From a virus: a stretch of DNA of 64,000 nt. A model generated the notes under the pieces. The model saw only the letters and a program-made list of their open reading frames with translations. It was not told where the DNA came from and did not search any database. The translations under genes and the position numbers were made by a program. Location of the stretch: positions 1 through 64,000 of the IMG/VR virus record IMGVR_UViG_3300035180_002599. One strand, 5' to 3'. Shown here in pieces: positions 7,873 through 59,050 of this stretch; within the stretch, counting starts at the first letter, position 1, and every line of letters begins with the position of its first letter.

Positions 7873-7916
7873 TAACCGATATGGTTATCTTTAAATTTAC
7901 CGACGAAGGTGATATT
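7873..7916 (+). promoter_or_regulatory. Conserved NAD-gene leader hairpin, copy 1
   Basis: A 6-bp hairpin (ATAACC, loop GATAT, GGTTAT) is followed by AAATTTACCGACGAAGGTG and the nadM start. The same arrangement, with compensating changes in the stem, occurs before nadV. The Shine-Dalgarno GAAGGTG lies in a possible second small hairpin (ACC-GACGAA-GGT). This suggests shared post-transcriptional control; the ligand or protein is unknown. Confidence 0.55.
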
Positions 7917-8960
7917 ATGAAAAAAAGTCTAGCAGTCTATATTGGACGTTTCCGTCCTCTACACAATGCACATCGCAATACAATTGAAACTTGTCTTAAA
8001 GAAAATGATGAAGTTTTGATTCTTATTGGGTCATGTGGAAATCCCCGAAATATTAAAAACCCGTTTACATTTGATGAGATCAATATTATGATTCGCTCAT
8101 GTTTCTCTGAAGAAGAAAATTCTAGAATTAAAATTGAGCCTCTTCTTGACCATTCATATGATGATACGAAATGGATTTCTCAAGTTCAAGGTATTGTTAA
8201 TACCGTAAAAACCTCAGATGAGAACATTAAGCTATATGGTAATGAGAAAGATCACTCATCTTTCTATCTGAAGTTTTTCCCTCAATGGAAATTTCGAGAT
8301 ATTGAAAACGTTTCAGATCTTCACGCTACAGATATTCGTAGATGTATGTTTTCAGATGAAGATAAAGAAGGTAACTGGATGTTGATTCAATCAAAAGTAC
8401 CAAAGTCTGTATTTTTGTTCTTGAAAGCGTTTGAAAAAACACAAGATTTTAAGAATCTAAAAGAAGAATATGATTTTATTCAAAAATATCGAAAATCATG
8501 GGAAAAAGCTCCATATCCACCAACATTTGTTACCGTAGACGCTGTTGTAGAATGTCTAGGTCACGTTCTTATGATTCAACGAAAAGCAACACCAGGTAGA
8601 GGTCTTTGGGCAATGCCAGGCGGATTTATTGATGTTCATGAAAAAATTGAAGATGCCATGATTCGTGAGTTGAAAGAAGAAACCAAAATTGATGTTTCTC
8701 ATAACCTTATAAAAGGTAGCATAAAAGCTAAAGAGGTTTTTGATAATCCTTATCGTTCTCTAAGAGGTAGAACAATTACACATGCTTATCATGTCGTTCT
8801 TAATCTTGACTATCTCCCTAAAGTAAAGGCAGATGATGATGCTATGGATGCGGTATGGATTCCTCTAGCAACACTTGCAGAAATGAGCAATCTTTGTTTT
8901 GAAGATCATATTGATATAGTTGCATATTTCACTAAAATTTCAAAAGTTTTTAAACATTAA
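7917..8960 (+). CDS. nadM: Bifunctional NMN adenylyltransferase / Nudix hydrolase
   Basis: This 347-residue enzyme has an N-terminal nucleotidylyltransferase domain: GRFRPLHNAH at residues 10-19 holds the HxxH-type ATP site. A C-terminal Nudix domain follows, with a box starting GGFIDVHEKIEDA near residue 235 and ending RELKEETKID. The first domain joins NMN and ATP to make NAD; the Nudix half probably hydrolyses ADP-ribose or a related nucleotide. An upstream in-frame ATG exists, but the chosen ATG has GAAGGTG at good spacing. With nadV 0.3 kb downstream it forms a two-step nicotinamide-to-NAD salvage route, as in KVP40-type phages and the NARP2 counter-defence pathway. Confidence 0.92.
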   Translation: MKKSLAVYIGRFRPLHNAHRNTIETCLKENDEVLILIGSCGNPRNIKNPFTFDEINIMIRSCFSEEENSRIKIEPLLDHSYDDTKWISQVQGIVNTVKTSDENIKLYGNEKDHSSFYLKFFPQWKFRDIENVSDLHATDIRRCMFSDEDKEGNWMLIQSKVPKSVFLFLKAFEKTQDFKNLKEEYDFIQKYRKSWEKAPYPPTFVTVDAVVECLGHVLMIQRKATPGRGLWAMPGGFIDVHEKIEDAMIRELKEETKIDVSHNLIKGSIKAKEVFDNPYRSLRGRTITHAYHVVLNLDYLPKVKADDDAMDAVWIPLATLAEMSNLCFEDHIDIVAYFTKISKVFKH

Positions 8961-8982
8961 TTAAGTTTAATATGATATAATT
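8961..8982 (+). promoter_or_regulatory. Host-type promoter
   Basis: TTAAGTTTAATATGATATAATT directly after nadM, about 30 bases before the next small gene. Confidence 0.6.
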
Positions 8983-9010
8983 AGTATATCAAAAGAAAAG
9001 AAGGATTGAA

Positions 9011-9232
9011 ATGAACTCACCTGATAAGAGAACTCAAAAAGCATTACAACGTCTAAGGCAAGGTAAAGGTATATACTTAATCACAATTAGCTTGCCTGAT
9101 GGTGGTTCTTATAAACTTTTAGTAAAGTTTAACAAGGGCGAATCTTTCATTGTTAAATTTTACAAAGACGGAAATCGTCTTGGTAAAAGAAAAAGAGGAA
9201 TTATCCTCAAGAAGATTCAAAAACATATTTAA
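9011..9232 (+). CDS. Small basic protein, unknown
   Basis: A 73-residue, strongly basic protein (KRKRGIILKKIQKHI at the C-terminus) between the two NAD genes, with its own promoter and the RBS AAGGA. The charge could suit nucleic acid binding, but no domain is recognised. Confidence 0.6.
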   Translation: MNSPDKRTQKALQRLRQGKGIYLITISLPDGGSYKLLVKFNKGESFIVKFYKDGNRLGKRKRGIILKKIQKHI

Positions 9233-9271
9233 AATCCGATATGGATTAAATTTAACCGAAGAAGGTGTAAA
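9231..9271 (+). promoter_or_regulatory. Conserved NAD-gene leader hairpin, copy 2
   Basis: AATCC, loop GATAT, GGATT forms a 5-bp hairpin followed by AAATTTAACCGAAGAAGGTG and the nadV start. Compared with the nadM leader, the loop and downstream block are kept while the stem bases change in a paired way. Confidence 0.55.
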
Positions 9272-10648
9272 ATGAAAAATAGAATTATGATGGTAGACAG
9301 TTATAAATTGTCTCATAAAAACATGTATCCACAAGGTGCTAACTATATGTTTGATTATATGGAAAGCCGTGGCGGTCTATACCCAGCAACTATATTTGTG
9401 GGTCTTCAACCAATGCTAAAAGAGTATTTCAGTGAACCCATCACTGAAAATGAAGTTATTGAAGCCCAAGGTTATGCAAAAGCCCATGGTGTTCCATTTG
9501 ATTATGATGGGTGGATGTACATCGCAAAAGATCTTAAAGGTATGCTTCCTATTCGCATCAGAGCTGTAAAAGAAGGAACACTAGTTCCTGTAAGTAATGT
9601 AATGGTCACAATCGAAAGTACAGACCCAAAAGTTTTTTGGGTTGTATCATGGCTTGAAACATTCTTCATGAAAATTTGGTATCCAATTAACGTAGCAACA
9701 CGTAGTTTTTACGTTCGCAAAATGCTAAAAGAATTTAGCGATAATACCGGTTCTGGATTTGTGGATTTTAGTTACCACAATTTCGGCGACAGAGGATCTA
9801 CTTCTATAGAGGCAGCTGCAATCGGTGGTTCTGCTCATATGGCAGTAGGTTTCCAAGGTACTGATAATTTCAATAGTCTAAAATTTGTCTTTGAAAACTA
9901 TGGTGATACTAATGTAGGCTTCAGCATTCCAGCGAGTGAACATTCAACAGTAACTAGTTGGGGACAAGAAAATGAATATAATATGATTGCTAATTACGTG
10001 GAAGAATTCAAAGGCTCTCCAATCATTGCTTGTGTTATGGACAGTTATAACATTTTTGAAGCTGTTAAATTCATCACAAGTGGTGAAATGAAAACAAAAA
10101 TTGAAAGCGATGATTATCCTATTTTCGTTATTCGCCCTGATAGTGGTAACCCAGTAGAAGTTATCGGAGCTATTATCAATATCATGGAAGATAATAGTGT
10201 CAAATTCACAATGAACGATAAAGATTACAAAGTCTGGAACAAATATCGTATAATTTGGGGCGACGGCATCAACATGGAATCAATGAAAGAAATTCTAGAA
10301 TATGTGACTGAACGTGGCTACAGCTCTGATAATATTGCATTCGGATCTGGCGGTTGGCTCATGCAACAACATGACCGGGATACGCAAAAATTCGCTATCA
10401 AATGTTCAGCTATTCAAGTTAATTCTGAAATGAGAGATGTATTTAAAGACCCAATAACAGACCACGGCAAAAAATCTAAGAAAGGTATAATCACACTTTG
10501 GAAAACTGAAAATGGCTATGAAACTGATTATAGAAACAGATCTTGGGAAGATAAAATAGTCGACTCCCTTGAGGTAGTTTTTGAAAACGGTGTTCTTAAA
10601 CGCAATCAATCATTCAGTGAAATTAGAGAGATTGTAAGCAAACAATAA
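9272..10648 (+). CDS. nadV: Nicotinamide phosphoribosyltransferase
   Basis: A 458-residue NAMPT-family enzyme that converts nicotinamide and PRPP to NMN. Typical segments are DSYKLSHKNMYP near the start, DYMESRGG, FGDRGSTSIEAAAIGG, IPASEHSTVTSWGQENEY, VIRPDSGNP, IIWGDGIN and AFGSGGWLMQQ. The Arg/Asp/Gly elements of the phosphate and nicotinamide sites (RPDSG, GDG) are present and the length is normal. The start is set by GAAGGTG in the conserved leader. It supplies NMN to NadM encoded just upstream, which can restore NAD during infection, including after NAD-depleting host defences. Confidence 0.95.
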   Translation: MKNRIMMVDSYKLSHKNMYPQGANYMFDYMESRGGLYPATIFVGLQPMLKEYFSEPITENEVIEAQGYAKAHGVPFDYDGWMYIAKDLKGMLPIRIRAVKEGTLVPVSNVMVTIESTDPKVFWVVSWLETFFMKIWYPINVATRSFYVRKMLKEFSDNTGSGFVDFSYHNFGDRGSTSIEAAAIGGSAHMAVGFQGTDNFNSLKFVFENYGDTNVGFSIPASEHSTVTSWGQENEYNMIANYVEEFKGSPIIACVMDSYNIFEAVKFITSGEMKTKIESDDYPIFVIRPDSGNPVEVIGAIINIMEDNSVKFTMNDKDYKVWNKYRIIWGDGINMESMKEILEYVTERGYSSDNIAFGSGGWLMQQHDRDTQKFAIKCSAIQVNSEMRDVFKDPITDHGKKSKKGIITLWKTENGYETDYRNRSWEDKIVDSLEVVFENGVLKRNQSFSEIREIVSKQ

Positions 10649-14296: not shown

Positions 14297-15001
14297 ATGC
14301 ACTTTAAAAACTTCTTATTTGAAGATGACAAAATAAAACAATATTCTATTTTATTAAAAGAATGTGAAATAATGAATTCAGATGCTATGTTATTGTTTAG
14401 AGGTTCTAAACATCAAAACTCAAATTTTGAACGTATTAAAACCCGAAAAGATAGAAGACCTTTAGACACTTCACCATTGATGCAAAAATATATGGATGAT
14501 GCTTTTGAAAATAAATTTAAAGAGAGAATAAGAAGCACTACAGTTTTCTGTGCTCAAGATAAAGTAATGGCAGGGATTTATGGACCTTTATATGTAGTAT
14601 TTCCCACTACAAAGGCTGAGTATTTTTCTACAGATGAATTTATAGATTTAAATTCAGTATTTTCTGATTATATAGGTAGAACCTTAAGTAAGCTTCATTC
14701 AAAAAAAGTATCTGAATTTGAGAAAAAATATAATTATGATGATTATGCTCAATTTTTGCCGGATGAATTATTAAGAGAAAATAGTTCAGATGATACAAAA
14801 TCACTAGATATGTTAAACGATTTCTTGGATTGTATTGCAGATTTTTATGAAAAAACAAACGTTCCAAAAAATAGAATTGGAGAACAGATGATTCTTTGTG
14901 ATGAATATATCTTGGTAAAATATTCCTCTTTACCTGAACCTGATGTAAACACTTATTCAGAATTAAAAAAAGTTTTAGAAAAATTAATTGAAAATGCTTA
15001 A
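14297..15001 (+). CDS. ADP-ribosyltransferase-like protein with capsid-targeting-like N-terminus
   Basis: This 234-residue protein begins MHFKNFLFEDD, like the T4 capsid-targeting peptide with an L-x-E cleavage site. Its layout matches arginine mono-ADP-ribosyltransferases: LLFRGSK (R site), RIRSTTVFC (S-T-T site), then GEQMILCDEYILVK as the possible catalytic Glu region. The middle block RRPLDTSPLM is shared with the 260-residue paralogue near 58.7 kb (RKPLDTGKVL). The upstream late octamer fits a virion-packaged effector like T4 Alt. The ART assignment rests on motif order, not a database match. Confidence 0.6.
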   Translation: MHFKNFLFEDDKIKQYSILLKECEIMNSDAMLLFRGSKHQNSNFERIKTRKDRRPLDTSPLMQKYMDDAFENKFKERIRSTTVFCAQDKVMAGIYGPLYVVFPTTKAEYFSTDEFIDLNSVFSDYIGRTLSKLHSKKVSEFEKKYNYDDYAQFLPDELLRENSSDDTKSLDMLNDFLDCIADFYEKTNVPKNRIGEQMILCDEYILVKYSSLPEPDVNTYSELKKVLEKLIENA

Positions 15002-19251: not shown

Positions 19252-20670
19252 ATGAACAAATTCGTTGAAGCTATGACAAACGAAACTCAAACAGAAAATG
19301 GTGCAGTTGCATTTAAAAGTTCTATGAACAAAAACGTAGACTTGTTTTTCGCAGGTGCTGTTAAAACATCAGTAGATGAAGTAAAAAATCTCATCACAAA
19401 AGCATTTTCGGAAAATCGTTTGCTTGCTTTAAAAGTAGCGTTCTATCTTCGTGATGCTCGTGAAGGACAAGGTAAACGCGATGTTATTCGGGCATTGATT
19501 AAAGTTCTTGCTCGAGAAGATTCGGCTACATTGACAAAAATTTTGCCATTCATTCCTATGATTGGACGTTGGAAAGATGTTTTTGAAGACATGAGCATTT
19601 ATAATGCAGAACAGCTTTTAATGATTAAAAAAATGATTGAAGTTGGAGCACAAGACCCATCGACTGTTCAGTTAATGGCTAAATGGATGCCTCGTAAAGG
19701 CCAAAATGCAGTAATTTTGACAAAACTTTTAGGTTTGTCACCAAAAGAATATCGTCGTTTCATCGTTGATAATTCTAACACCGTTGAGCAATTGATGTGT
19801 GCTAAACAATGGAATGATATTGATTTTGAGAAAGTACCATCCGTGGCTTCTAAAATCTATCAAAAAGCGTTCATGCGTAATTCCGAAACTTATCAATCAT
19901 ATGTAAACTCACTTGTAAAAGGTGAAGCTAAAGTAAATGCATCTGTATTGTACCCACATGATATTGTTTCAGCAGTACTGCATGATCGTGGGAATATGAG
20001 CGTCTTAGACGCTCAATGGAAAGCGTTGCCAGATTATATGAGCGGTGCTGAGCGTTACAATGTATTGCCAGTAATTGATACATCTGGATCTATGTGTTCG
20101 ATTGCTTATGGAAATACTACATGTATGGATATTTCTGTAGGTTTAGGTGTGTATCTTTCACAACGAAACCGTGGCGCATTTAAAGATATGTGGTGTAATT
20201 TCGATTCAACCCCAACTTTTTATACACTAAAAAGTGGAACAATTGAACAAGTTGTAAAGGGATTGGATTATAGTAACTGGGGCGGATCAACAGATCTAAA
20301 TGCAGTTTTCTATAAATTACTTAACACTGCATTGCAAAATAATGTACCATCTGAGGACATGCCAAAAATTATTCTTATCATCTCTGATATGGAATTCAAT
20401 TTATGTGGACGTCTTAGCAACTATGAGAAAATCAAAGTGCAGTACCGTGAGGCTGGATATGAATGTCCAGCAATTGTATTTTGGAATGTACAATCTCGAA
20501 ATAATACAACACCAGTTCGCTTCAATGAAAAAGGTGTGGCACTGATTGGTGGTTATTCACCAGTCATCATGCAACAAATCTTGAAAGGTGGATTGAAAGA
20601 TCTTACACCTGAGGGAATTATGTTACAAACGGTTTCCGATAAATATAATTACCTTAACGGTCTTGTATAA
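19252..20670 (+). CDS. Ro60/TROVE-like (DUF2828-type) protein with vWA domain
   Basis: A 472-residue protein. The N-terminal half has the helical-repeat pattern of TROVE/DUF2828 proteins (VDLFFAGAV, LLALKVAFYLRDAREGQGKR, then a second helical block). The C-terminal half is a vWA domain with an intact MIDAS DTSGS at residues 266-270 and a D-F-N-L strand later. Ro60 proteins bind the ends of misfolded RNA and Y RNAs in a ring topped by vWA. The 80-base leader and the 230-base spacer downstream may hold partner RNAs. Function in a phage is unknown; RNA handling is inferred. Confidence 0.7.
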   Translation: MNKFVEAMTNETQTENGAVAFKSSMNKNVDLFFAGAVKTSVDEVKNLITKAFSENRLLALKVAFYLRDAREGQGKRDVIRALIKVLAREDSATLTKILPFIPMIGRWKDVFEDMSIYNAEQLLMIKKMIEVGAQDPSTVQLMAKWMPRKGQNAVILTKLLGLSPKEYRRFIVDNSNTVEQLMCAKQWNDIDFEKVPSVASKIYQKAFMRNSETYQSYVNSLVKGEAKVNASVLYPHDIVSAVLHDRGNMSVLDAQWKALPDYMSGAERYNVLPVIDTSGSMCSIAYGNTTCMDISVGLGVYLSQRNRGAFKDMWCNFDSTPTFYTLKSGTIEQVVKGLDYSNWGGSTDLNAVFYKLLNTALQNNVPSEDMPKIILIISDMEFNLCGRLSNYEKIKVQYREAGYECPAIVFWNVQSRNNTTPVRFNEKGVALIGGYSPVIMQQILKGGLKDLTPEGIMLQTVSDKYNYLNGLV

Positions 20671-21193: not shown

Positions 21194-22024
21194 ATGCATT
21201 ATAAAGATTTTTTATTTGAGAATTTAAATGAATATAGTCAAGAACGCTCTCAAGTCATTAAAATAGAAGAAGTTGTTAAATTAATAAAGACTGATTATTC
21301 AGAAGCTTGGAATAAATTAAATGAAGGTATTGTTCTTTACAGAGGAACTGAAAATAATTCTGATTTTATTATTACAGACCCCTCAATAGGTATTAGAAAT
21401 TCGGCAAACACTTTTAATTATTATACAGCTATTATAGATAATTCTAAGAGATGGAAAGGTTATCCTAAAAGATCTAAATCGGTTATATGCAGCACTTCAA
21501 TATCATATGCTGGAGGTTATGGTTCTGTTTTTTATGTGTTGCCAAAAAACGGATCTAATATAGGAGTAGCTCATGAAAGAGATTTTTGGGAATCATTTCC
21601 TATATTAACCCAACGTTTAGTTAAATTTGGATTCCGAGCTAAAACCTTACGAGGATTGAATTTAATAATAAATGCTCTTATATCTATAGCAGTTCCTAAT
21701 ATTAATCCTGATATTAAAGAATTTTCTACATTAGCTAAAACCTTAAAAGAAGTTGATGAGTATTTGAACAAAAAAGAATATTTGGAAGACGAAAACATAG
21801 ATCAAGAAATGTTGAAGAATTACATGGAGTTCTTAAATGTACACTCAGATGATAAAATTAACTGTTTAGAAGATATTGACAGTATATTAAATCCAGAAGA
21901 TAATAATTTCAAAAAATTCAAGCTAAGTGATTTCTCTATTAAAGGCGATCATGAGGTTTGGACAGACGGAAAATGTTTAATGATTAATGTTGATAAATTA
22001 GATTCATTAGGTGAATTATTATGA
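21194..22024 (+). CDS. ADP-ribosyltransferase-like protein with capsid-targeting-like N-terminus
   Basis: A 276-residue protein starting MHYKDFLFEN, with an L-F-E site at residues 7-9. ART-like order: IVLYRGTEN (R), YPKRSKSVICSTSISYAGGY (S-T-S) and, near the C-terminus, HEVWTDGKCLMI (candidate catalytic Glu). The next gene is a paralogue with the same three blocks (FYRGDK, YPKREYSVIGST, KEVWTDEDCVMI). It overlaps that gene by 4 bases. It probably modifies host proteins after injection, as T4 Alt does; this is inference from motifs and N-terminus. Confidence 0.6.
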   Translation: MHYKDFLFENLNEYSQERSQVIKIEEVVKLIKTDYSEAWNKLNEGIVLYRGTENNSDFIITDPSIGIRNSANTFNYYTAIIDNSKRWKGYPKRSKSVICSTSISYAGGYGSVFYVLPKNGSNIGVAHERDFWESFPILTQRLVKFGFRAKTLRGLNLIINALISIAVPNINPDIKEFSTLAKTLKEVDEYLNKKEYLEDENIDQEMLKNYMEFLNVHSDDKINCLEDIDSILNPEDNNFKKFKLSDFSIKGDHEVWTDGKCLMINVDKLDSLGELL

Positions 22025-22845
22025 GATTCTCTATTTTTTTACAAGAAAAACATGAAGGAACGAATAGAACAAAAGCTATCACTAAAAAGAAGTTAAAAGA
22101 ATTATTATCAGAATATAATGAAGATGAATTGCGAAATATTCTTGGTTCATCCGATAAATTTAATAAATTCTATAGAGGGGATAAGTTAAATAAATCTATA
22201 GGGTTCATTAGTCCTAAATTATCGAGAAGATTCTCTCCTTATGCTGCAAATAACTTTTATAATCTTTACTTATCTAATTCTAATGATTGGTCTGCATATC
22301 CTAAGCGTGAATATTCTGTAATTGGAAGTACAGGTTATGGCAAAGCATCTTCATATGCGGTTAATGAGCCTTTTATTTTGATACCTATTAAGAAAAATGC
22401 AAAAATAGGAATAGCCCCGGCTGATGATATATGGGATTCTTTCTTAAAAAAATTAGGTGATCTAAATAAAATAAACAAAATGGTAGGTAGAGCAGCTTCT
22501 ATTATTAATAAAAATTATTCTGGCTGGGATGAAAATTGGGAAAAAACTTTAGACATATTGAAATCTTTCAATAAAGATGCATTAAAGGGACTTGGATCTG
22601 GACAAATTGATAGCTTATTTGAAGATTTTCCGATGCTTAAAATGTTGATGAAGAGATATGATTCATTATACGATGCCTTAGAAGATAGAATGTCTCCAAA
22701 AGATAATGGGTTTTCAGTAGTAACTTTTGATAAATTCCTTACTGGTTCATATGGAAATAAAGAGGTCTGGACTGATGAGGATTGCGTTATGATAAAAGTT
22801 ACGGATTCTATAGATATCTTATATGAATTAACTAAAGGAAAGTAA
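22021..22845 (+). CDS. ADP-ribosyltransferase-like paralogue with capsid-targeting-like N-terminus
   Basis: A 274-residue paralogue of the preceding protein. It starts MRFSIFLQEK (L-Q-E at residues 7-9) and carries FYRGDK, YPKREYSVIGST, the region FILIPIKKNAKIGIAPADD, and KEVWTDEDCVMI near the C-terminus. The STS serine pair is reduced to ST-G, so activity may differ. It is coupled to its neighbours by an overlapping start and a two-base gap. Confidence 0.6.
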   Translation: MRFSIFLQEKHEGTNRTKAITKKKLKELLSEYNEDELRNILGSSDKFNKFYRGDKLNKSIGFISPKLSRRFSPYAANNFYNLYLSNSNDWSAYPKREYSVIGSTGYGKASSYAVNEPFILIPIKKNAKIGIAPADDIWDSFLKKLGDLNKINKMVGRAASIINKNYSGWDENWEKTLDILKSFNKDALKGLGSGQIDSLFEDFPMLKMLMKRYDSLYDALEDRMSPKDNGFSVVTFDKFLTGSYGNKEVWTDEDCVMIKVTDSIDILYELTKGK

Positions 22846-22847
22846 TA

Positions 22848-23579
22848 ATGACATTTAAGAAATTAATAGAAAGCATAGAAGACAAAGGAATACTTAAAGC
22901 TGTATTTATGGTTGCAGGACCTGGATCTGGAAAGACATTTATAGGTAAACAACTATTTGGGGAAATTCAGCCTAAAATTATTAATACTGATACCTATACA
23001 AGAGATTACTTCGGAATAGCTAAAGAAGCGTGGGATATTTTCTCTACTGAAACACCTAAATCAATTGTAGACAGATCTAAGCAATTGACTAAAGATCAAT
23101 TGTTTCTAAATATTAATTCAATGCTTCCTTTATTGATTGATAGTACAAGTTCTAACACTACATCATTATTCAAACGTGATGGTATTTTAAAATCTTTAGG
23201 GTATGAAACCGCAATGGTTTTTATTAAAGTTTCATTAGAAACTGCTATTCGTAGAAATGAAGAAAGAATAAAAAATGGAGAAGGCGGAGTATCAGAAGAA
23301 TTTCTTAAAGAAACTTATGGTAAAATTTCTGAAATTGAAGATTTTTATAAAGATAATTTTAAGAACTTTTATGTTATAATTAATGAGGATGATAACGCAT
23401 TTGATATATACTTACAAAAAAGATTTAAAGAGATTCAACGTTTTTATAACACACCAACTAGGAATCCAATAGGTATTAATGTGTTGAAAAAATTGAAAGA
23501 ATCCAAGGGTAAGTATATAACAGATAGTGAATTGTTTCCAAAAGACAGAGTAAAACAGATAATAGACGGATGGTATTAA
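22848..23579 (+). CDS. P-loop kinase (zeta-toxin / polynucleotide-kinase-like)
   Basis: A 243-residue protein with Walker A AGPGSGKT at residues 23-30, a DTYTRDYFG block after the second strand as in zeta-toxin or PNK-type kinases, DSTSSNTTSLF, and a basic lid ETAIRRNEERIKNGEGG. It begins MTFKKLIES, with an L-I-E site, so it may also be packaged. It could phosphorylate RNA ends, matching the RNA ligase and nucleotidyltransferases nearby, or act on UDP-sugars like zeta toxins. Confidence 0.7.
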   Translation: MTFKKLIESIEDKGILKAVFMVAGPGSGKTFIGKQLFGEIQPKIINTDTYTRDYFGIAKEAWDIFSTETPKSIVDRSKQLTKDQLFLNINSMLPLLIDSTSSNTTSLFKRDGILKSLGYETAMVFIKVSLETAIRRNEERIKNGEGGVSEEFLKETYGKISEIEDFYKDNFKNFYVIINEDDNAFDIYLQKRFKEIQRFYNTPTRNPIGINVLKKLKESKGKYITDSELFPKDRVKQIIDGWY

Positions 23580-24121: not shown

Positions 24122-24946
24122 ATGGGCGGAAATGCTATTAAATGTAGTTCTAGAATAAATCAAGAAAACATTGAAGAAACTATAATAGAAATAAAGAAAA
24201 TGTTATATGATTTAGATATCAATGAGAACAATATTGCAGTTTTGGGGTCAGCTAGTAAAAAACTTCCAGGAGAAACATCTGGAGATATTGACATAGCTAT
24301 CAATATAAATGCTCTACCAGTAAATAGTTATGATTATTTGATTGATTATATGTCTAAAAAAGTTATTGAATATAAAGATATGAGATCCATGGGTATTATA
24401 TCTATAGCATTTCCTATAAAAAACATTGATTTAAGACAAATTAATAAATTTGTCCAAGTAGATTTTATGTTGGTTGATTCTATAGAATGGGCTTCATGGG
24501 CTTTTTATTCACCGTCTAGTAAAGAAAGCCCGTGGAAGGGTTTATATAGAAACGAAATACTTTATTCTATAGCTAAGCATATGAATTTTGAATTTTTAGA
24601 TTTTATTGATTCTTTACCAGTTTCTTGGAAAAGAAATTTTTTTGATCTTAGCAAAGGTTTGTTAACTGGAACCCAAACTATAAAAGGTAAAAAATCAATA
24701 TTAAAAACAGCTAAGACATTAGAAAAAACATTAATAAGTAAAGATCCAGATGAAGTTGTTAAAATGATGTTTAATGAAGATTTGTGTAAAGATGATGTGT
24801 TGACGTGGGAAAGTACATTTAAACATTTAATTTCAGATGATTTTAAATATAAGAATAACTTATTAAACATTTTAAAAATGACTAAAGAAGGTATAACTAG
24901 AAAAGGTTATCCAGTTCCTATTGAACTGGATCAATTTTTTACATAA
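24122..24946 (+). CDS. Nucleotidyltransferase-fold protein
   Basis: A 274-residue protein with the polymerase-beta-type signature GSASKKLPGETSGDIDIAI from residue 42 (GS, then the metal-binding D-x-D) and a third acidic strand VQVDFMLV. A helical C-terminal part follows. Its substrate is unknown: nucleotidylation of RNA ends, tRNA or protein are all possible. It lies between a P-loop kinase and an RNA ligase fusion, which favours RNA end processing. Confidence 0.7.
   Translation: MGGNAIKCSSRINQENIEETIIEIKKMLYDLDINENNIAVLGSASKKLPGETSGDIDIAININALPVNSYDYLIDYMSKKVIEYKDMRSMGIISIAFPIKNIDLRQINKFVQVDFMLVDSIEWASWAFYSPSSKESPWKGLYRNEILYSIAKHMNFEFLDFIDSLPVSWKRNFFDLSKGLLTGTQTIKGKKSILKTAKTLEKTLISKDPDEVVKMMFNEDLCKDDVLTWESTFKHLISDDFKYKNNLLNILKMTKEGITRKGYPVPIELDQFFT
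24424..24931. other. Convergent gene ends
   Basis: The nucleotidyltransferase gene and the minus-strand ferritin-like gene converge and overlap by 16 bases at their 3' ends. No separate terminator hairpin is visible between them. Confidence 0.3.
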
Positions 24947-25398
24947 TCAGAGAATGTTTTTGGTGAGTTGTCTTGAATAGATCTAGTTTCTTTAGCTAAT
25001 GGGGCCAAATCATCAAAATGTTCTATCTCATCATTCATAATTTCGGTAAAAAAAGCTTCGGTTTCAACATCATCATTAGAACGAGCAAGTAACACAATTG
25101 ATCTATAATCATTGATAGCAGTTTGTTCTAAGTTTTGAGTAAAATCAAGAATTTCTTTATCGGTATCTGGATAATCGTTTGTATATTCCGTCAATTCAAT
25201 TACAGGATCTAATCCATGATTGATACAGAATGATATAATTTCATTAAAATGTTCAAATTCATCTTTTGAATGATCTATCAATTCTTCAGCAATTTTTGAG
25301 TTTGTTGCATATTCAGACATGGCCTTATATACTATACTGGTGCTAATTTCATCATTTAATACTTTAGCTAACATTTTTTCTAGTTGTTCTTTATACAT
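24931..25398 (-). CDS. Ferritin-like diiron protein
   Basis: A 155-residue four-helix protein with a complete ferritin-type metal set: E17, the EFEH motif at residues 47-50, E91 and the EIEH motif at 124-127. Bacterioferritin/Dps-like proteins store or oxidise iron and protect DNA from peroxide. It is the only minus-strand gene in this region and has a late octamer on its own strand, so it is probably a late product. Confidence 0.8.
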   Translation of the reverse strand: MYKEQLEKMLAKVLNDEISTSIVYKAMSEYATNSKIAEELIDHSKDEFEHFNEIISFCINHGLDPVIELTEYTNDYPDTDKEILDFTQNLEQTAINDYRSIVLLARSNDDVETEAFFTEIMNDEIEHFDDLAPLAKETRSIQDNSPKTFSDYVKN

Positions 25399-25423: not shown

Positions 25424-25431
25424 TATTTATA
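25424..25431 (-). promoter_or_regulatory. Late promoter octamer, ferritin-like gene
   Basis: An exact TATAAATA on the minus strand, overlapping by two bases an identical octamer on the plus strand. Confidence 0.6.
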
Positions 25432-25437
25432 TAAATA
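25430..25437 (+). promoter_or_regulatory. Late promoter octamer, RNA ligase fusion gene
   Basis: An exact TATAAATA on the plus strand 13 bases before the ATG. It is very close to the start, so the transcript would have almost no leader before AAAGGAAAG. Confidence 0.5.
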
Positions 25438-25449
25438 AAAGGAAAGTTA

Positions 25450-27069
25450 ATGACTCATTTATATCAAGAAGTATCAAAAAAAGGGACAGAATTCTTAAAC
25501 ACCATCTTTAATAAAGAAATAACGATTACTGAAAAGTTAGATGGTACTGCATTAATATGTAAACGAACCAAATCTGGCATAATTTTCTTTGGTAGAGATG
25601 GAACTAAGAAAATAGATAAAGTAGCTAGAATGTTTAGCACCATGTATGAAGCAGGAATTGAATATTTAAAAACTAAAGATTTATCATTTCTTAGATTAAA
25701 TGAAGAATTACATTTTGAATATTTTGCTCCTAAAGTTACTCATATAGTTTCATATGATAACATTCCGGAAAATGGTTTAGTATTGCTTGCTAGTACAACT
25801 AAACGTAATTTGAATATGATAGCATATGATTTAGGGGTATTGCCTCCTCCAATAATATTCAAAGGAAAATTGAATGATGAACAGAAAGATGAGCTAACTA
25901 AATTTTTGATTATGAGTCCAGAGCTTAGACAAATAAAATTCAAAACTAATTCATTTACTTCTTTTATTGTTAGTTTATTGAATGATAATTATACACCAGC
26001 ATTGGGTAGCAATGACATAGAAGGCATAGTAATAAGCACTCAAGATGGTACTTTTGTTTCAAAAATAATAGATCCATTATTCACAGATACCGTAATGTCT
26101 AAGAAAGATAATGATGAAGTAAAGGCGGAATATTATAAAGACATATCTCGTTTAGTAACTAATTTGGAAATGACTGGAGTTGAAACATATGATTCTCCAG
26201 AAGCAAATATTGAGGACAGATATATTGACTTTTTGATGAATATCATCATAAACAATATTAGTTCTATAATGGATAAAAAACAAGAGTTTGCTAAATATGA
26301 TTTTGGAAAACCTTATATAGCTTCTTATACTGATTTTAATTACAATGTTTTTCCTAAAGTCGTATCCGACATTATGAAAGATAATCCATGGTTTAGAGAT
26401 TTTGCTAGATTGACATTTAACACTTATGTTAAACCTAAAAATCGAGCTACGAAAAATTTTAGCAAAGATGATATTCAAATAATTAATAGAAAAATAGAGC
26501 TAATTAAAAAATATGTTCTATTAGATGATGATTTAGATGATGTAGTTGAATCTGTTATAGATGAACCTTTAGAAGTTTATGGGGTAATGTTTGGAAGATT
26601 TCAGCCATTAACTAATGGACATTTGAAAGGTATTGTGCAAATGTCCGAACAAGCAGACAAAGGATGTATTTACTTAGTAAAAGGTGAAAAAACATCCAGT
26701 GATAAAGATAAAAATCCTTTTGATGAAGAAATTCAAATCAAAATGCTAGAAGCGGTTGTTCCTAAAAATATTGAAGTAAAAGTTATAAACGCTGCATTTT
26801 TTCCAGATGTTATTAATGAAATGGATTACAATAATTATTTAGTTTTTTGTGGGTCTGATAGATACACGTCTTATTCTAAAATGTTATCTTATGTTGATGA
26901 AGGTAAAACTGTAGAGATTATTGAAATAAATAGAGATGAAAGCGAAGATGTTTCTGCAACTAAAGTAAGAGCTGCTTTAAAGAATGAGGACAAAGAACTT
27001 TTTGAACAAATGACTCCTAAAGAAATTCACAATTTTTATGAAGAATTGTTAACGTATATTGGTGAATAA
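25450..27069 (+). CDS. RNA ligase fused to an NMN-adenylyltransferase-like domain
   Basis: This 539-residue protein has two parts. The N-terminal half is a nucleotidyltransferase-type ligase: EKLDGTA puts the adenylated lysine at K29 (KxDG), with FGRDGTKK, HFEYF (motif IIIa-like) and EGIVIST (motif IV) following. From about residue 378 there is a nucleotidylyltransferase domain with FGRFQPLTNGH, CGSDRY and SATKVRAAL, the hallmarks of NMNAT/NadR. The ligase half resembles phage RNA ligases rather than DNA ligases. The fusion may make or use NAD at RNA ends, or couple RNA repair to NAD status. Confidence 0.8.
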   Translation: MTHLYQEVSKKGTEFLNTIFNKEITITEKLDGTALICKRTKSGIIFFGRDGTKKIDKVARMFSTMYEAGIEYLKTKDLSFLRLNEELHFEYFAPKVTHIVSYDNIPENGLVLLASTTKRNLNMIAYDLGVLPPPIIFKGKLNDEQKDELTKFLIMSPELRQIKFKTNSFTSFIVSLLNDNYTPALGSNDIEGIVISTQDGTFVSKIIDPLFTDTVMSKKDNDEVKAEYYKDISRLVTNLEMTGVETYDSPEANIEDRYIDFLMNIIINNISSIMDKKQEFAKYDFGKPYIASYTDFNYNVFPKVVSDIMKDNPWFRDFARLTFNTYVKPKNRATKNFSKDDIQIINRKIELIKKYVLLDDDLDDVVESVIDEPLEVYGVMFGRFQPLTNGHLKGIVQMSEQADKGCIYLVKGEKTSSDKDKNPFDEEIQIKMLEAVVPKNIEVKVINAAFFPDVINEMDYNNYLVFCGSDRYTSYSKMLSYVDEGKTVEIIEINRDESEDVSATKVRAALKNEDKELFEQMTPKEIHNFYEELLTYIGE

Positions 27070-56395: not shown

Positions 56396-57406
56396 ATGAA
56401 TTATGATTTACAAACTTTCAAAAATATGTTACCAGATGGATATACGCTTTTGTATGTAACAAAATCTGGATCTCAGTTGTACGGGACAAATACACCAAGA
56501 TCCGATACCGATTATAAAGGTGTTTATGCACCATCTGTTTATAGTTTAGTAACCAAAACAGATTTAGAAGAAGTTAAAAACGACACCGGAAATGACAAAA
56601 CAAAAAACAGTGCAGATGATGTGGATTGTACTTTAGATTCATTAGGTAAATTTTTTCTATTGCTCTCTAAAGGTGAAACTGGAGCATTGGACGTATTATT
56701 CTCTATGTTTCGTGAGGATACTATAGTTTATGCAGAGCCAACATTTTTAGAACACATGAAAACTGTGTATAAAGGTTTTTTAAGCTCAAACACTAAAGCG
56801 TTCATGGGATATTGTTTTCAACAAGCTACGAAATACGGCCTTAAAGGTAAACGATATGATTCATTGATGAAATTATTCAATGAAGCGTCTCCTTTAAATT
56901 CATCTAAAGATCTTACCGTTGCTGATTGGTTGGGAAATTTAGACTTTTCTACATTTGATGAAGCTCACGTAAAAGTAACTAGCAAAGATAATGGTGAATA
57001 TTTGTATGTTCTGGGGCGGGAATTTCATATGAAAATGCCCATGAAAGATGCGGGTCCCGTTTTGGAGAAAATGAAAGGAATGTATGGTGAAAGAACCAAA
57101 CAAGCATCAGAATCAGCTAATGGATCCACTGATTGGAAAGCCTTATCTCATGCAGTTCGTGTTGTTGAAGAAGCAAAAGAATTATTGACAGATGAGTTCA
57201 TAACGTTTCCATTAAAAAATGCAGAATATGTTAAACTTGTCAAACAAGGAAAATGTTCTGTAGAAAATGTAATGGAAACATTAGAACAAGAAATGAACAC
57301 AGTAGAAAATTTGCTACTAAGTACTAAATTACCTTCAGAAGTTGATAAGAATTTTGTGGATACAACTTTGTATTCAATAATAGATTTTTACAAAGCTCAA
57401 GCCTGA
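56396..57406 (+). CDS. RlaP-type nucleotidyltransferase
   Basis: A 336-residue protein with the PF10127-type signature SGSQLYGTNTPRSDTDYKGV (GS at 25-26, catalytic D-x-D at 37-39), then VDCTLDSLGKFFLLLSKGE and a helical C-terminal domain. RlaP (RNA-ligase-associated polymerase-beta-like) proteins are linked to RNA repair operons. Here an RNA ligase fusion and a P-loop kinase are elsewhere in the window. Confidence 0.8.
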   Translation: MNYDLQTFKNMLPDGYTLLYVTKSGSQLYGTNTPRSDTDYKGVYAPSVYSLVTKTDLEEVKNDTGNDKTKNSADDVDCTLDSLGKFFLLLSKGETGALDVLFSMFREDTIVYAEPTFLEHMKTVYKGFLSSNTKAFMGYCFQQATKYGLKGKRYDSLMKLFNEASPLNSSKDLTVADWLGNLDFSTFDEAHVKVTSKDNGEYLYVLGREFHMKMPMKDAGPVLEKMKGMYGERTKQASESANGSTDWKALSHAVRVVEEAKELLTDEFITFPLKNAEYVKLVKQGKCSVENVMETLEQEMNTVENLLLSTKLPSEVDKNFVDTTLYSIIDFYKAQA

Positions 57407-58267: not shown

Positions 58268-59050
58268 TTAATCATTGGATACATCATTAAAGGCTTTTTT
58301 CATATCTTCTAGAAATACTAGTAGATTTGCATATGTATCAATACCTGAATAATTTGGCACTTTTACATAATAATATGAGTCATTTTCAATCATAATTTCA
58401 TTAGACTTGTATTGGTTATATGGAGGAAAGCTGGAAAATTTTTTATATGTCTCAGCAGTTCTTTTAAATACTTCGTTGATTAAACTAAAATCTATATTCT
58501 TATTTTTTGAAGCTATTATCTTCATATATAAGTTAGAAAATCTACTACTACCTAAATCCATAGGTTTCATACCAACACTCTTAGCAAGCTCATCTTGCTC
58601 ATCTTTTGAAAATCCTATTTTATCTAACATAACATCCATATTAAGATCATAAAAAAATTGTGTCATATCAGGGATTATTGAAGATGCATAAAATGTACTT
58701 CCAGCTTTTGGTACAACTATACCAATATTTCCCATATTAAAACTAAGACCAGTATAAGACATTGCAATTTTAGGTGAAAATGTGGCGAATGTTGTTGATG
58801 AACGAATGGGTTTATTGAATAATTTAACAAATTCTTCATCCATTTTTGTAGATAAAACTTTACCGGTATCTAATGGTTTTCTAAATTGTCTAATCGTTTT
58901 TTCTCCAACTGGGTCGATAGGTTTTAAGAAACCACGATAAAGACAATGAGTTTTTTCTAATTTTTGAGACTTAATAGATTCTATAATTTGTAACAGAATA
59001 CCTTCAAATTTATTATTTTTAGTCTCCAGTACAAATCGTTTAAAATGCAT
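58268..59050 (-). CDS. ADP-ribosyltransferase-like protein with capsid-targeting-like N-terminus
   Basis: A 260-residue protein starting MHFKRFVLETK. ART-like order: CLYRGFLKP (R), RSSTTFATFSP (S-T-T), GIVVPKAGSTFYASSIIPDM, and YKSNEIMIENDSYYYVKV near the C-terminus (candidate Glu). It shares RKPLDTGKVLSTKMDEEF with the 234-residue ART-like protein near 14.5 kb (RRPLDTSPLMQKYMDDAF). It is intact beside a broken copy, showing duplication. It probably acts on host proteins after injection. Confidence 0.62.
   Translation of the reverse strand: MHFKRFVLETKNNKFEGILLQIIESIKSQKLEKTHCLYRGFLKPIDPVGEKTIRQFRKPLDTGKVLSTKMDEEFVKLFNKPIRSSTTFATFSPKIAMSYTGLSFNMGNIGIVVPKAGSTFYASSIIPDMTQFFYDLNMDVMLDKIGFSKDEQDELAKSVGMKPMDLGSSRFSNLYMKIIASKNKNIDFSLINEVFKRTAETYKKFSSFPPYNQYKSNEIMIENDSYYYVKVPNYSGIDTYANLLVFLEDMKKAFNDVSND

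Follow-up and report, generated by a model that had tools for sequence, protein, structure and literature searches.

A single gene, occupying exactly positions 25450–27069 on the + strand of the window (the 64,000-nucleotide stretch of viral DNA analysed here, positions 1–64,000 of IMG/VR record IMGVR_UViG_3300035180_002599), encodes from an ATG start a 539-residue protein in which a ligase-like half is joined to a nucleotidylyltransferase of the HIGH superfamily, as judged by Pfam, AF2, Foldseek and alignments. We see an even chance that this fusion belongs to a phage-specific cassette for nucleic-acid end repair that is expressed late and often packaged in the virion. Such a cassette would combine a HIGH nucleotidylyltransferase with a family-X-polymerase-like nucleotidyltransferase and with one or two paralogous ligases of the Rnl2 type. 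The first-pass annotation had read the gene as an RNA ligase fused to an NMN-adenylyltransferase domain, and the joining of a ligase half to a half of NMN-adenylyltransferase type, with a NadM/PPAT-type fold and with catalytic motifs in both halves, was borne out.

Domain architecture of the fusion protein

The AF2 model of the whole fusion is good (mean pLDDT 86.5). Its C-terminal half (residues 374–539; 26569–27066, + strand) was assigned by Pfam, motifs and the model. PF01467 matched this half with 34.1 bits against a cut-off of 21 (E 3.6e-8), and in a search of its own record the half was returned at E 2.0e-10. The motifs GRFQPLTNGH (residues 382–391), GSDR and SATKVR (residues 502–507) are present, and both the (H/T)xGH and the SxTxxR patterns are matched. 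Residues 374–539 of the model superimpose on PPAT (3k9w; Z 16.9 over 153 residues), NadM (2qjo; Z 16.5 over 155 residues) and NMNAT (1ej2; Z 15.5 over 151 residues); as modelled, the fold is certainly of the PPAT/NadM/NMNAT type. The NCBIfam models for NMNAT stayed below their cut-offs (TIGR01527, 33.7 of 127 bits; PRK01153, 27.4 of 181.2 bits). Since PPAT and NMNAT score alike and the NCBIfam models are far from their cut-offs, ‘NMN adenylyltransferase’ is to be read as the name of a fold, not of a substrate. Fold and motifs of the model fit NMNAT and PPAT-like specificity equally, and NAD synthesis by the C-terminal half is not supported by them. Two further first-pass suggestions, that this half serves the ligase and that NAD-capped or ADP-ribosylated RNA is the target, stay conjectural; on the RNA substrate the present results are neutral.

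The N-terminal half (about residues 1–340, the boundary being taken from a profile match to residues 1–339; 25450–26469, + strand) is ligase-like and of the Rnl2 type. Alignments place motif I at EKLDG, with Lys29, motif III at FEYF and motif IV at IEGIV; motif V reads VSKIIDP, with a single Lys in place of KxK and in an uncertain register against Rnl2. The roles that we assign to EKLDG, FEYF, IEGIV and the motif V lysine are presumed from general knowledge of the ligase family. PF09414 (RNA_ligase) remained under its curated cut-off with the whole protein (E 0.11) and with the N-terminal half alone (14.3 bits against 27, E 0.047, profile positions 2–156 of 171); the best score among the relatives, 26.6 bits for the protein of locus L031, also lies just under 27 bits. 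Comparison with T4 Rnl2 by hhalign gave E 0.017 at a probability of 2.7 (negative control, 0.44) and fell short of significance for both ligase alignments (type 1 and type 2, see below), although the two types match each other at E 3e-5. Zero matches came from the PDB when it was searched with a profile of the ligase-like alignment, and likewise from a tblastn search of phages with the ligase of L014; among the Pfam models listed for the cassette members scanned there was none for a DNA ligase. Among viral models, proteins labelled RNA ligase were matched by Foldseek at E about 5e-10. These fold searches used the full-length model, with the ligase half matched as part of it, and in the PDB fold lists the HIGH half took up all places, to the exclusion of the ligase half. 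A longer helical stretch follows the ligase core in the AF2 model. We assign the N-terminal half, with weaker confidence, to a divergent Rnl2-type ligase, for which sealing activity is predicted from the sequence. Structure prediction, which the first-pass annotation had proposed as a check, was thus positive for the C-terminal half (PPAT/NadM/NMNAT, Z 15–17) and weaker for the ligase half, whose matches are to viral RNA-ligase models.

The ligase and HIGH profiles both match one open reading frame in 11 further distinct sequences, giving 12 fused proteins with the window; the 11 include L003 (from LR756500) and L061 (domain order reversed). The layout of the window fusion recurs in Vibrio phage Va1 and Campylobacter phage CP220. 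Chance motif matches as the source of the fusion are ruled out by this recurrence in other phages. Foldseek against viral models returned A0A6J5NWC5 as a full-length database relative (E 2.9e-34), and a scan of viral contigs with the fusion protein itself as query returned zero relatives.

A conserved partner gene upstream

The gene at 24122–24946 (+ strand) encodes a protein of 274 residues, starting M-GGN, which was identified by its AF2 model (pLDDT 95.7) and fold matches as a family-X-polymerase-like nucleotidyltransferase and which is the conserved partner in the cassette. Residues 7–233 match Pol lambda (4k4i_E; Z 11.6, rmsd 3.2, 179 residues aligned), and Pol beta (Z 10.8) and Thermus PolX (Z 10.6) are matched as well, with palm and thumb covered. 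The catalytic residues Asp55, Asp57 and Asp114 (GS...DxD and a third Asp) are invariant across 29 aligned rows; this alignment was used because the pattern for the third Asp proved too strict (60 of 83 rows fit both patterns). A PDB profile search with the nucleotidyltransferase alignment gave only chance-like matches, for example to catenin. Identity with RlaP was considered and rejected: of 8 members scanned at E 0.1, none matched PF10127.

Relatives of this protein were sought with an alignment of the window sequence and two relatives as query. They numbered 252 in viral contigs and one in genome_contigs (84,980 species), the latter in a metagenome-assembled genome. The best 80 loci of the 252 were kept, and their sequences served for the iterative construction of a profile for each of the three cassette families. 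The loci were chosen by the nucleotidyltransferase alone; 55 of the best 80 were non-redundant, and 31 of these had 5 kb on both sides. A ligase-like or a HIGH gene accompanied the nucleotidyltransferase in 29 of these 31 (ligase in 23, HIGH in 27, both in 21), the exceptions being L096 and L101, with neither. As a control for linkage, the type-1 ligase was located in 12 of 14 whole records (122–389 kb), at one place per record, and comparison by hand put it inside the nucleotidyltransferase-centred locus of at most 17 kb in 10 of the 12; several of these records are near-duplicates, so they are not independent. The link to the neighbouring nucleotidyltransferase, which had been proposed from the window alone, is therefore real, and stronger than could be known then.

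The same gene set occurs in the named phages PA5oct (gp256 and gp253), Atu_ph07 (gp066 and gp065) and Sinorhizobium phage Phosso (446 and 447). The genes are split in Xanthomonas phage X1 and Stenotrophomonas phage Ps15 and fused in Va1 and CP220, the ligase halves of these four having been recognised partly by eye. Genes that look by eye like PD-(D/E)XK nucleases were also seen (L006 4141–5142, L019 6740–7756, L007 4276–5220, L012 3316–4650), either near the nucleotidyltransferase and ligase or, in cyanophages, beside the HIGH gene; the three that were scanned had no Pfam match above cut-off.

Two ligase types and the state of their motifs

A rapid maximum-likelihood analysis of 75 ligase rows places the window protein in a clade of 33 rows (‘type 2’; SH-aLRT 98), on a long branch (1.38 changes per column) whose exact place is unsure. 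Type-2 ligases usually lie downstream of the nucleotidyltransferase gene, and fusions with a HIGH half occur at separate places in this part of the tree. Seven of the 33 rows retain strict KxDG (window, L052, L053, L054, L067, L070 and L093). Both HIGH motifs are kept in 5 of the 12 distinct fused proteins found by the profiles, and the window protein is the only type-2 fusion among these 12 that has KxDG together with both HIGH motifs. Va1 reads KTDG and CP220 KYDG at motif I, although the ligase profile reaches neither. Of 67 HIGH domains outside ligase fusions, 57 retain both motifs; in L050, L052, L053, L054, L055, L070 and L093 the HIGH domain is part of a larger protein of 621–1006 residues.

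Judged from these sequences, the fused family looks to be decaying in several lineages, and the window copy appears to be under selection for catalysis: intact motifs on so long a branch are hard to explain otherwise. With both active sites decayed in many fusion relatives, some members of the family may serve a role other than catalysis. Missing catalytic residues or an inert adenylyltransferase half, which had been named beforehand as fatal to the original reading, were thus encountered in many relatives but not in the window copy.

Leader peptides and the prohead protease

Of the 74 distinct nucleotidyltransferase sequences that have the GG/SG start motif (79 rows less 5 without it), 63 show Glu directly before it and 7, the window included, the start Met. 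Similarly, Glu precedes GGxYG in all 16 distinct type-1 ligases that have this motif. The peptides ahead of E/GG or E/SG resemble the leaders of the T4 internal proteins ipII and ipIII. A rough leader pattern, which was written after the sequences had been viewed and which misses T4 ipI, fitted 43 of 70 nucleotidyltransferases, 25 of 39 KxDG ligases, 22 of 50 HIGH genes and 2 of 12 fused proteins, against 173 of 790 background open reading frames. The T4 prohead protease cuts after Glu. Among the records of relatives, 12 of 14 contain a gene for a prohead protease of the Peptidase_S77 (gp21) family; none was found in the window's own 93-kb record, which is probably a fragment. In sequence, the leaders that the nucleotidyltransferase and the presumably active ligase paralogue carry in most relatives look capsid-targeting-like, as if a T4-type prohead protease cut at E/GG or E/SG. 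T4 internal proteins are described as packaged by way of their leaders, and at least one of them as an injected protein that acts against an enzyme of the host (PMC3012670).

Neither the window fusion nor the window nucleotidyltransferase carries a capsid-targeting leader, and for these copies packaging is conjectural. The PA5oct nucleotidyltransferase, itself leaderless, is annotated in its record as a structural protein by ESI-MS/MS; the ligase-like gp256 of the same phage has no virion note in the record. NMNAT-like proteins have been reported by mass spectrometry in virions of the cyanophages S-SCSM1, S-CBWM1 and S-CREM2, where the authors consider that they may be carry-over in the purified virions (PMC9602691, PMC10665884). 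In the huge-phage loci L081 (4956–11714), L082 and L083, several nucleotidyltransferase domains lie in long open reading frames in which E/GG is repeated internally, as if these were polyproteins cut there.

Promoter and genomic context

The late-type promoter claimed in the first-pass annotation corresponds to the T4-late-type motif TATAAATA at 25430–25437 (+ strand), ending 13 nt upstream of the fusion ATG. With 10 such sites against an expected 16, the window is not enriched in them. Seven of these sites are nevertheless located no more than 60 nt ahead of the start of a gene on the same strand, a position in which 4% are expected; AT-rich intergenic gaps inflate this excess. A transcript starting from the motif would have a very short leader, cutting into the ribosome-binding site, and use of the site is accordingly rated as plausible. 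A ferritin/rubrerythrin-like gene (24931–25398) is divergent from the fusion, and a back-to-back pair of these motifs at 25424–25437 is common to both.

Upstream of the cassette lie a P-loop kinase with a CTS-like start (22848–23579, + strand; AAA_33, Zeta_toxin and polynucleotide-kinase PHROG), which is a possible partner, and two phrog_12810-type proteins, also with CTS-like starts (22021–22845 and 21194–22024, both + strand), whose label as ADP-ribosyltransferase-like is inferred by eye only. CTS-like starts were noted on four proteins in all outside the kinase, at 14297–15001, 21194–22845 (the two just named) and 58268–59050; three of the four were scanned, and the PHROGs that they match, of unknown function, also include genes next to the cassette of Atu_ph07. 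The four are possibly packaged ADP-ribosyltransferases. Further upstream, a DUF2828/DUF7788 protein with a vWA-like part (19252–20670, + strand) may, we assume, be a Ro/TROVE-like RNA-binding platform. Separate from the cassette are RlaP, an RNA-repair-associated Pol-beta-type nucleotidyltransferase (56396–57406, + strand; PF10127, 41.8 bits against a cut-off of 23), and four tRNA genes. The phage also has, as originally noted, a NadM-type NMN adenylyltransferase/Nudix protein distinct from the fusion (7881–8960, + strand), together with NAMPT (9272–10648).

Discussion

The model that we propose builds on the domains, motifs, gene linkage, leader pattern and promoter motif, which are observed directly, and on papers and records that place HIGH homologues and one nucleotidyltransferase in virions; packaging of these exact proteins, catalysis, a substrate for the HIGH half and an RNA or DNA target are inferred. 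Many relatives would produce the enzymes late, with a short leader that directs them to the prohead and that a T4-type prohead protease would trim after Glu, and they would be packed and delivered with the genome. In the new host the polymerase-like enzyme would restore nucleotides at broken ends, the ligase would adenylate itself on the motif I lysine (Lys29 in the window) and then seal the ends, and the HIGH half would produce an adenylylated metabolite, most simply NAD+, to be consumed by the infection programme. A more far-reaching proposal, offered tentatively and with more doubt than confidence, is that a whole class of phages, T4-like and jumbo ones, injects a ready-made end-repair kit of family-X-type polymerase, ligase and NAD-type adenylyltransferase, matured by the prohead protease at Glu-Gly or Glu-Ser, and that the ligase–adenylyltransferase fusion seen in this lineage couples cofactor synthesis to sealing.

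RNA is slightly favoured as the target of the cassette, in view of the Rnl2-type ligase, RlaP, the DUF2828 protein and the tRNAs. For DNA speak the family-X fold and the replication genes that neighbour the relatives, and it counts against RNA that the polymerase-like fold matches DNA enzymes and not RNA enzymes. The cassette might repair incoming phage DNA, filling gaps and sealing nicks before replication in the manner of the packaged base-excision-repair enzymes of African swine fever virus (ASFV), which we consider rather unlikely. The palm-plus-thumb matches to Pol lambda, Pol beta and bacterial PolX agree with such a role, as do the genes resembling DNA polymerase, primase and replicative helicase that recur in the relatives' loci (assigned by eye and from named records) and the packaging of PolX, DNA ligase and AP endonuclease described for ASFV (PMC12172490). 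It sits less well with a ligase half that resembles RNA ligases, with the lack of DNA-ligase Pfam models among the scanned members and with the presence of RlaP and tRNA genes in the same window.

For the fusion itself, the loss of both HIGH motifs in 7 of the 12 fused proteins and of strict KxDG in 26 of the 33 type-2 rows would be expected if it were mainly a structural or scaffolding protein of the virion, its enzyme folds being relics and the intact window motifs a slowly decaying remnant. We hold this to be improbable, given that the ligase and HIGH motifs of the window have both survived on its long branch and that stand-alone HIGH domains mostly keep theirs. It is quite possible, if on balance doubtful, that the HIGH half is functionally unrelated to the ligase and is a host-metabolism enzyme (for NAD, CoA or a sugar nucleotide), packed or made late and fused by way of gene order. 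HIGH genes do occur without a ligase in L044, L045, L047, L082 and L083 and in cyanophages, and the phage has NAD salvage genes of its own; the repeated fusion at separate places of the type-2 tree and the linkage of both ligase and HIGH genes to the polymerase-like gene nevertheless speak for a joint function.

If the cassette reading is correct, some phages carry repair enzymes in the particle rather than express them after entry, and the view of how the earliest tRNA-cutting or DNA-cutting defences are beaten would change. The NMNAT-like proteins that have turned up again and again in cyanophage virions would also acquire a role open to testing, and the polymerase-like enzyme and the ligase paralogues are named as partner families, which are described neither in Pfam nor in PHROGs. 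Phage RNA repair (PMC7824862), NAD salvage (PMC9503650) and injected enzymes are each already known singly, and our searches of the open-access literature found no account of this packaged cassette, of its E/GG leaders or of the ligase–HIGH fusion.

Compared with known systems, the window protein shares with T4 RNA ligase 2 and PF09414 an EKxDG motif I, motifs III and IV and, less firmly, a Foldseek match to viral RNA-ligase models, and differs in its score below the Pfam cut-off, the single lysine of motif V, the longer helical stretch and the HIGH fusion, and in having no significant profile match to T4 Rnl2. The HIGH domain is homologous to that of the NMNAT-like or cytidyltransferase proteins of cyanophage virions (phrog_395, phrog_3041), in which a ligase half was not detected. 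As in the phage systems described for RlaP and RNA ligase (PMC7824862), a Pol-beta-type nucleotidyltransferase would work with a ligase, there an ATP-grasp RNA ligase; unlike in those systems, the nucleotidyltransferase of the cassette is not RlaP, leaders occur in most relatives and a HIGH partner is present. The NadM-type adenylyltransferase fold is shared with the NadM–NadV salvage pathway of phages (PMC9503650), but the fusion has neither a Nudix domain nor a paired NAMPT, the salvage genes of this phage being the separate ones at 7881–10648. ASFV is a eukaryotic virus whose ligase is a DNA ligase, not of the Rnl2 type, with no HIGH enzyme described alongside it (PMC12172490); by analogy only, its packaged base-excision-repair enzymes (PolX, ligase and AP endonuclease), which likewise bring a family-X polymerase and a ligase together in the virion, may be the nearest precedent known to us for such a kit.
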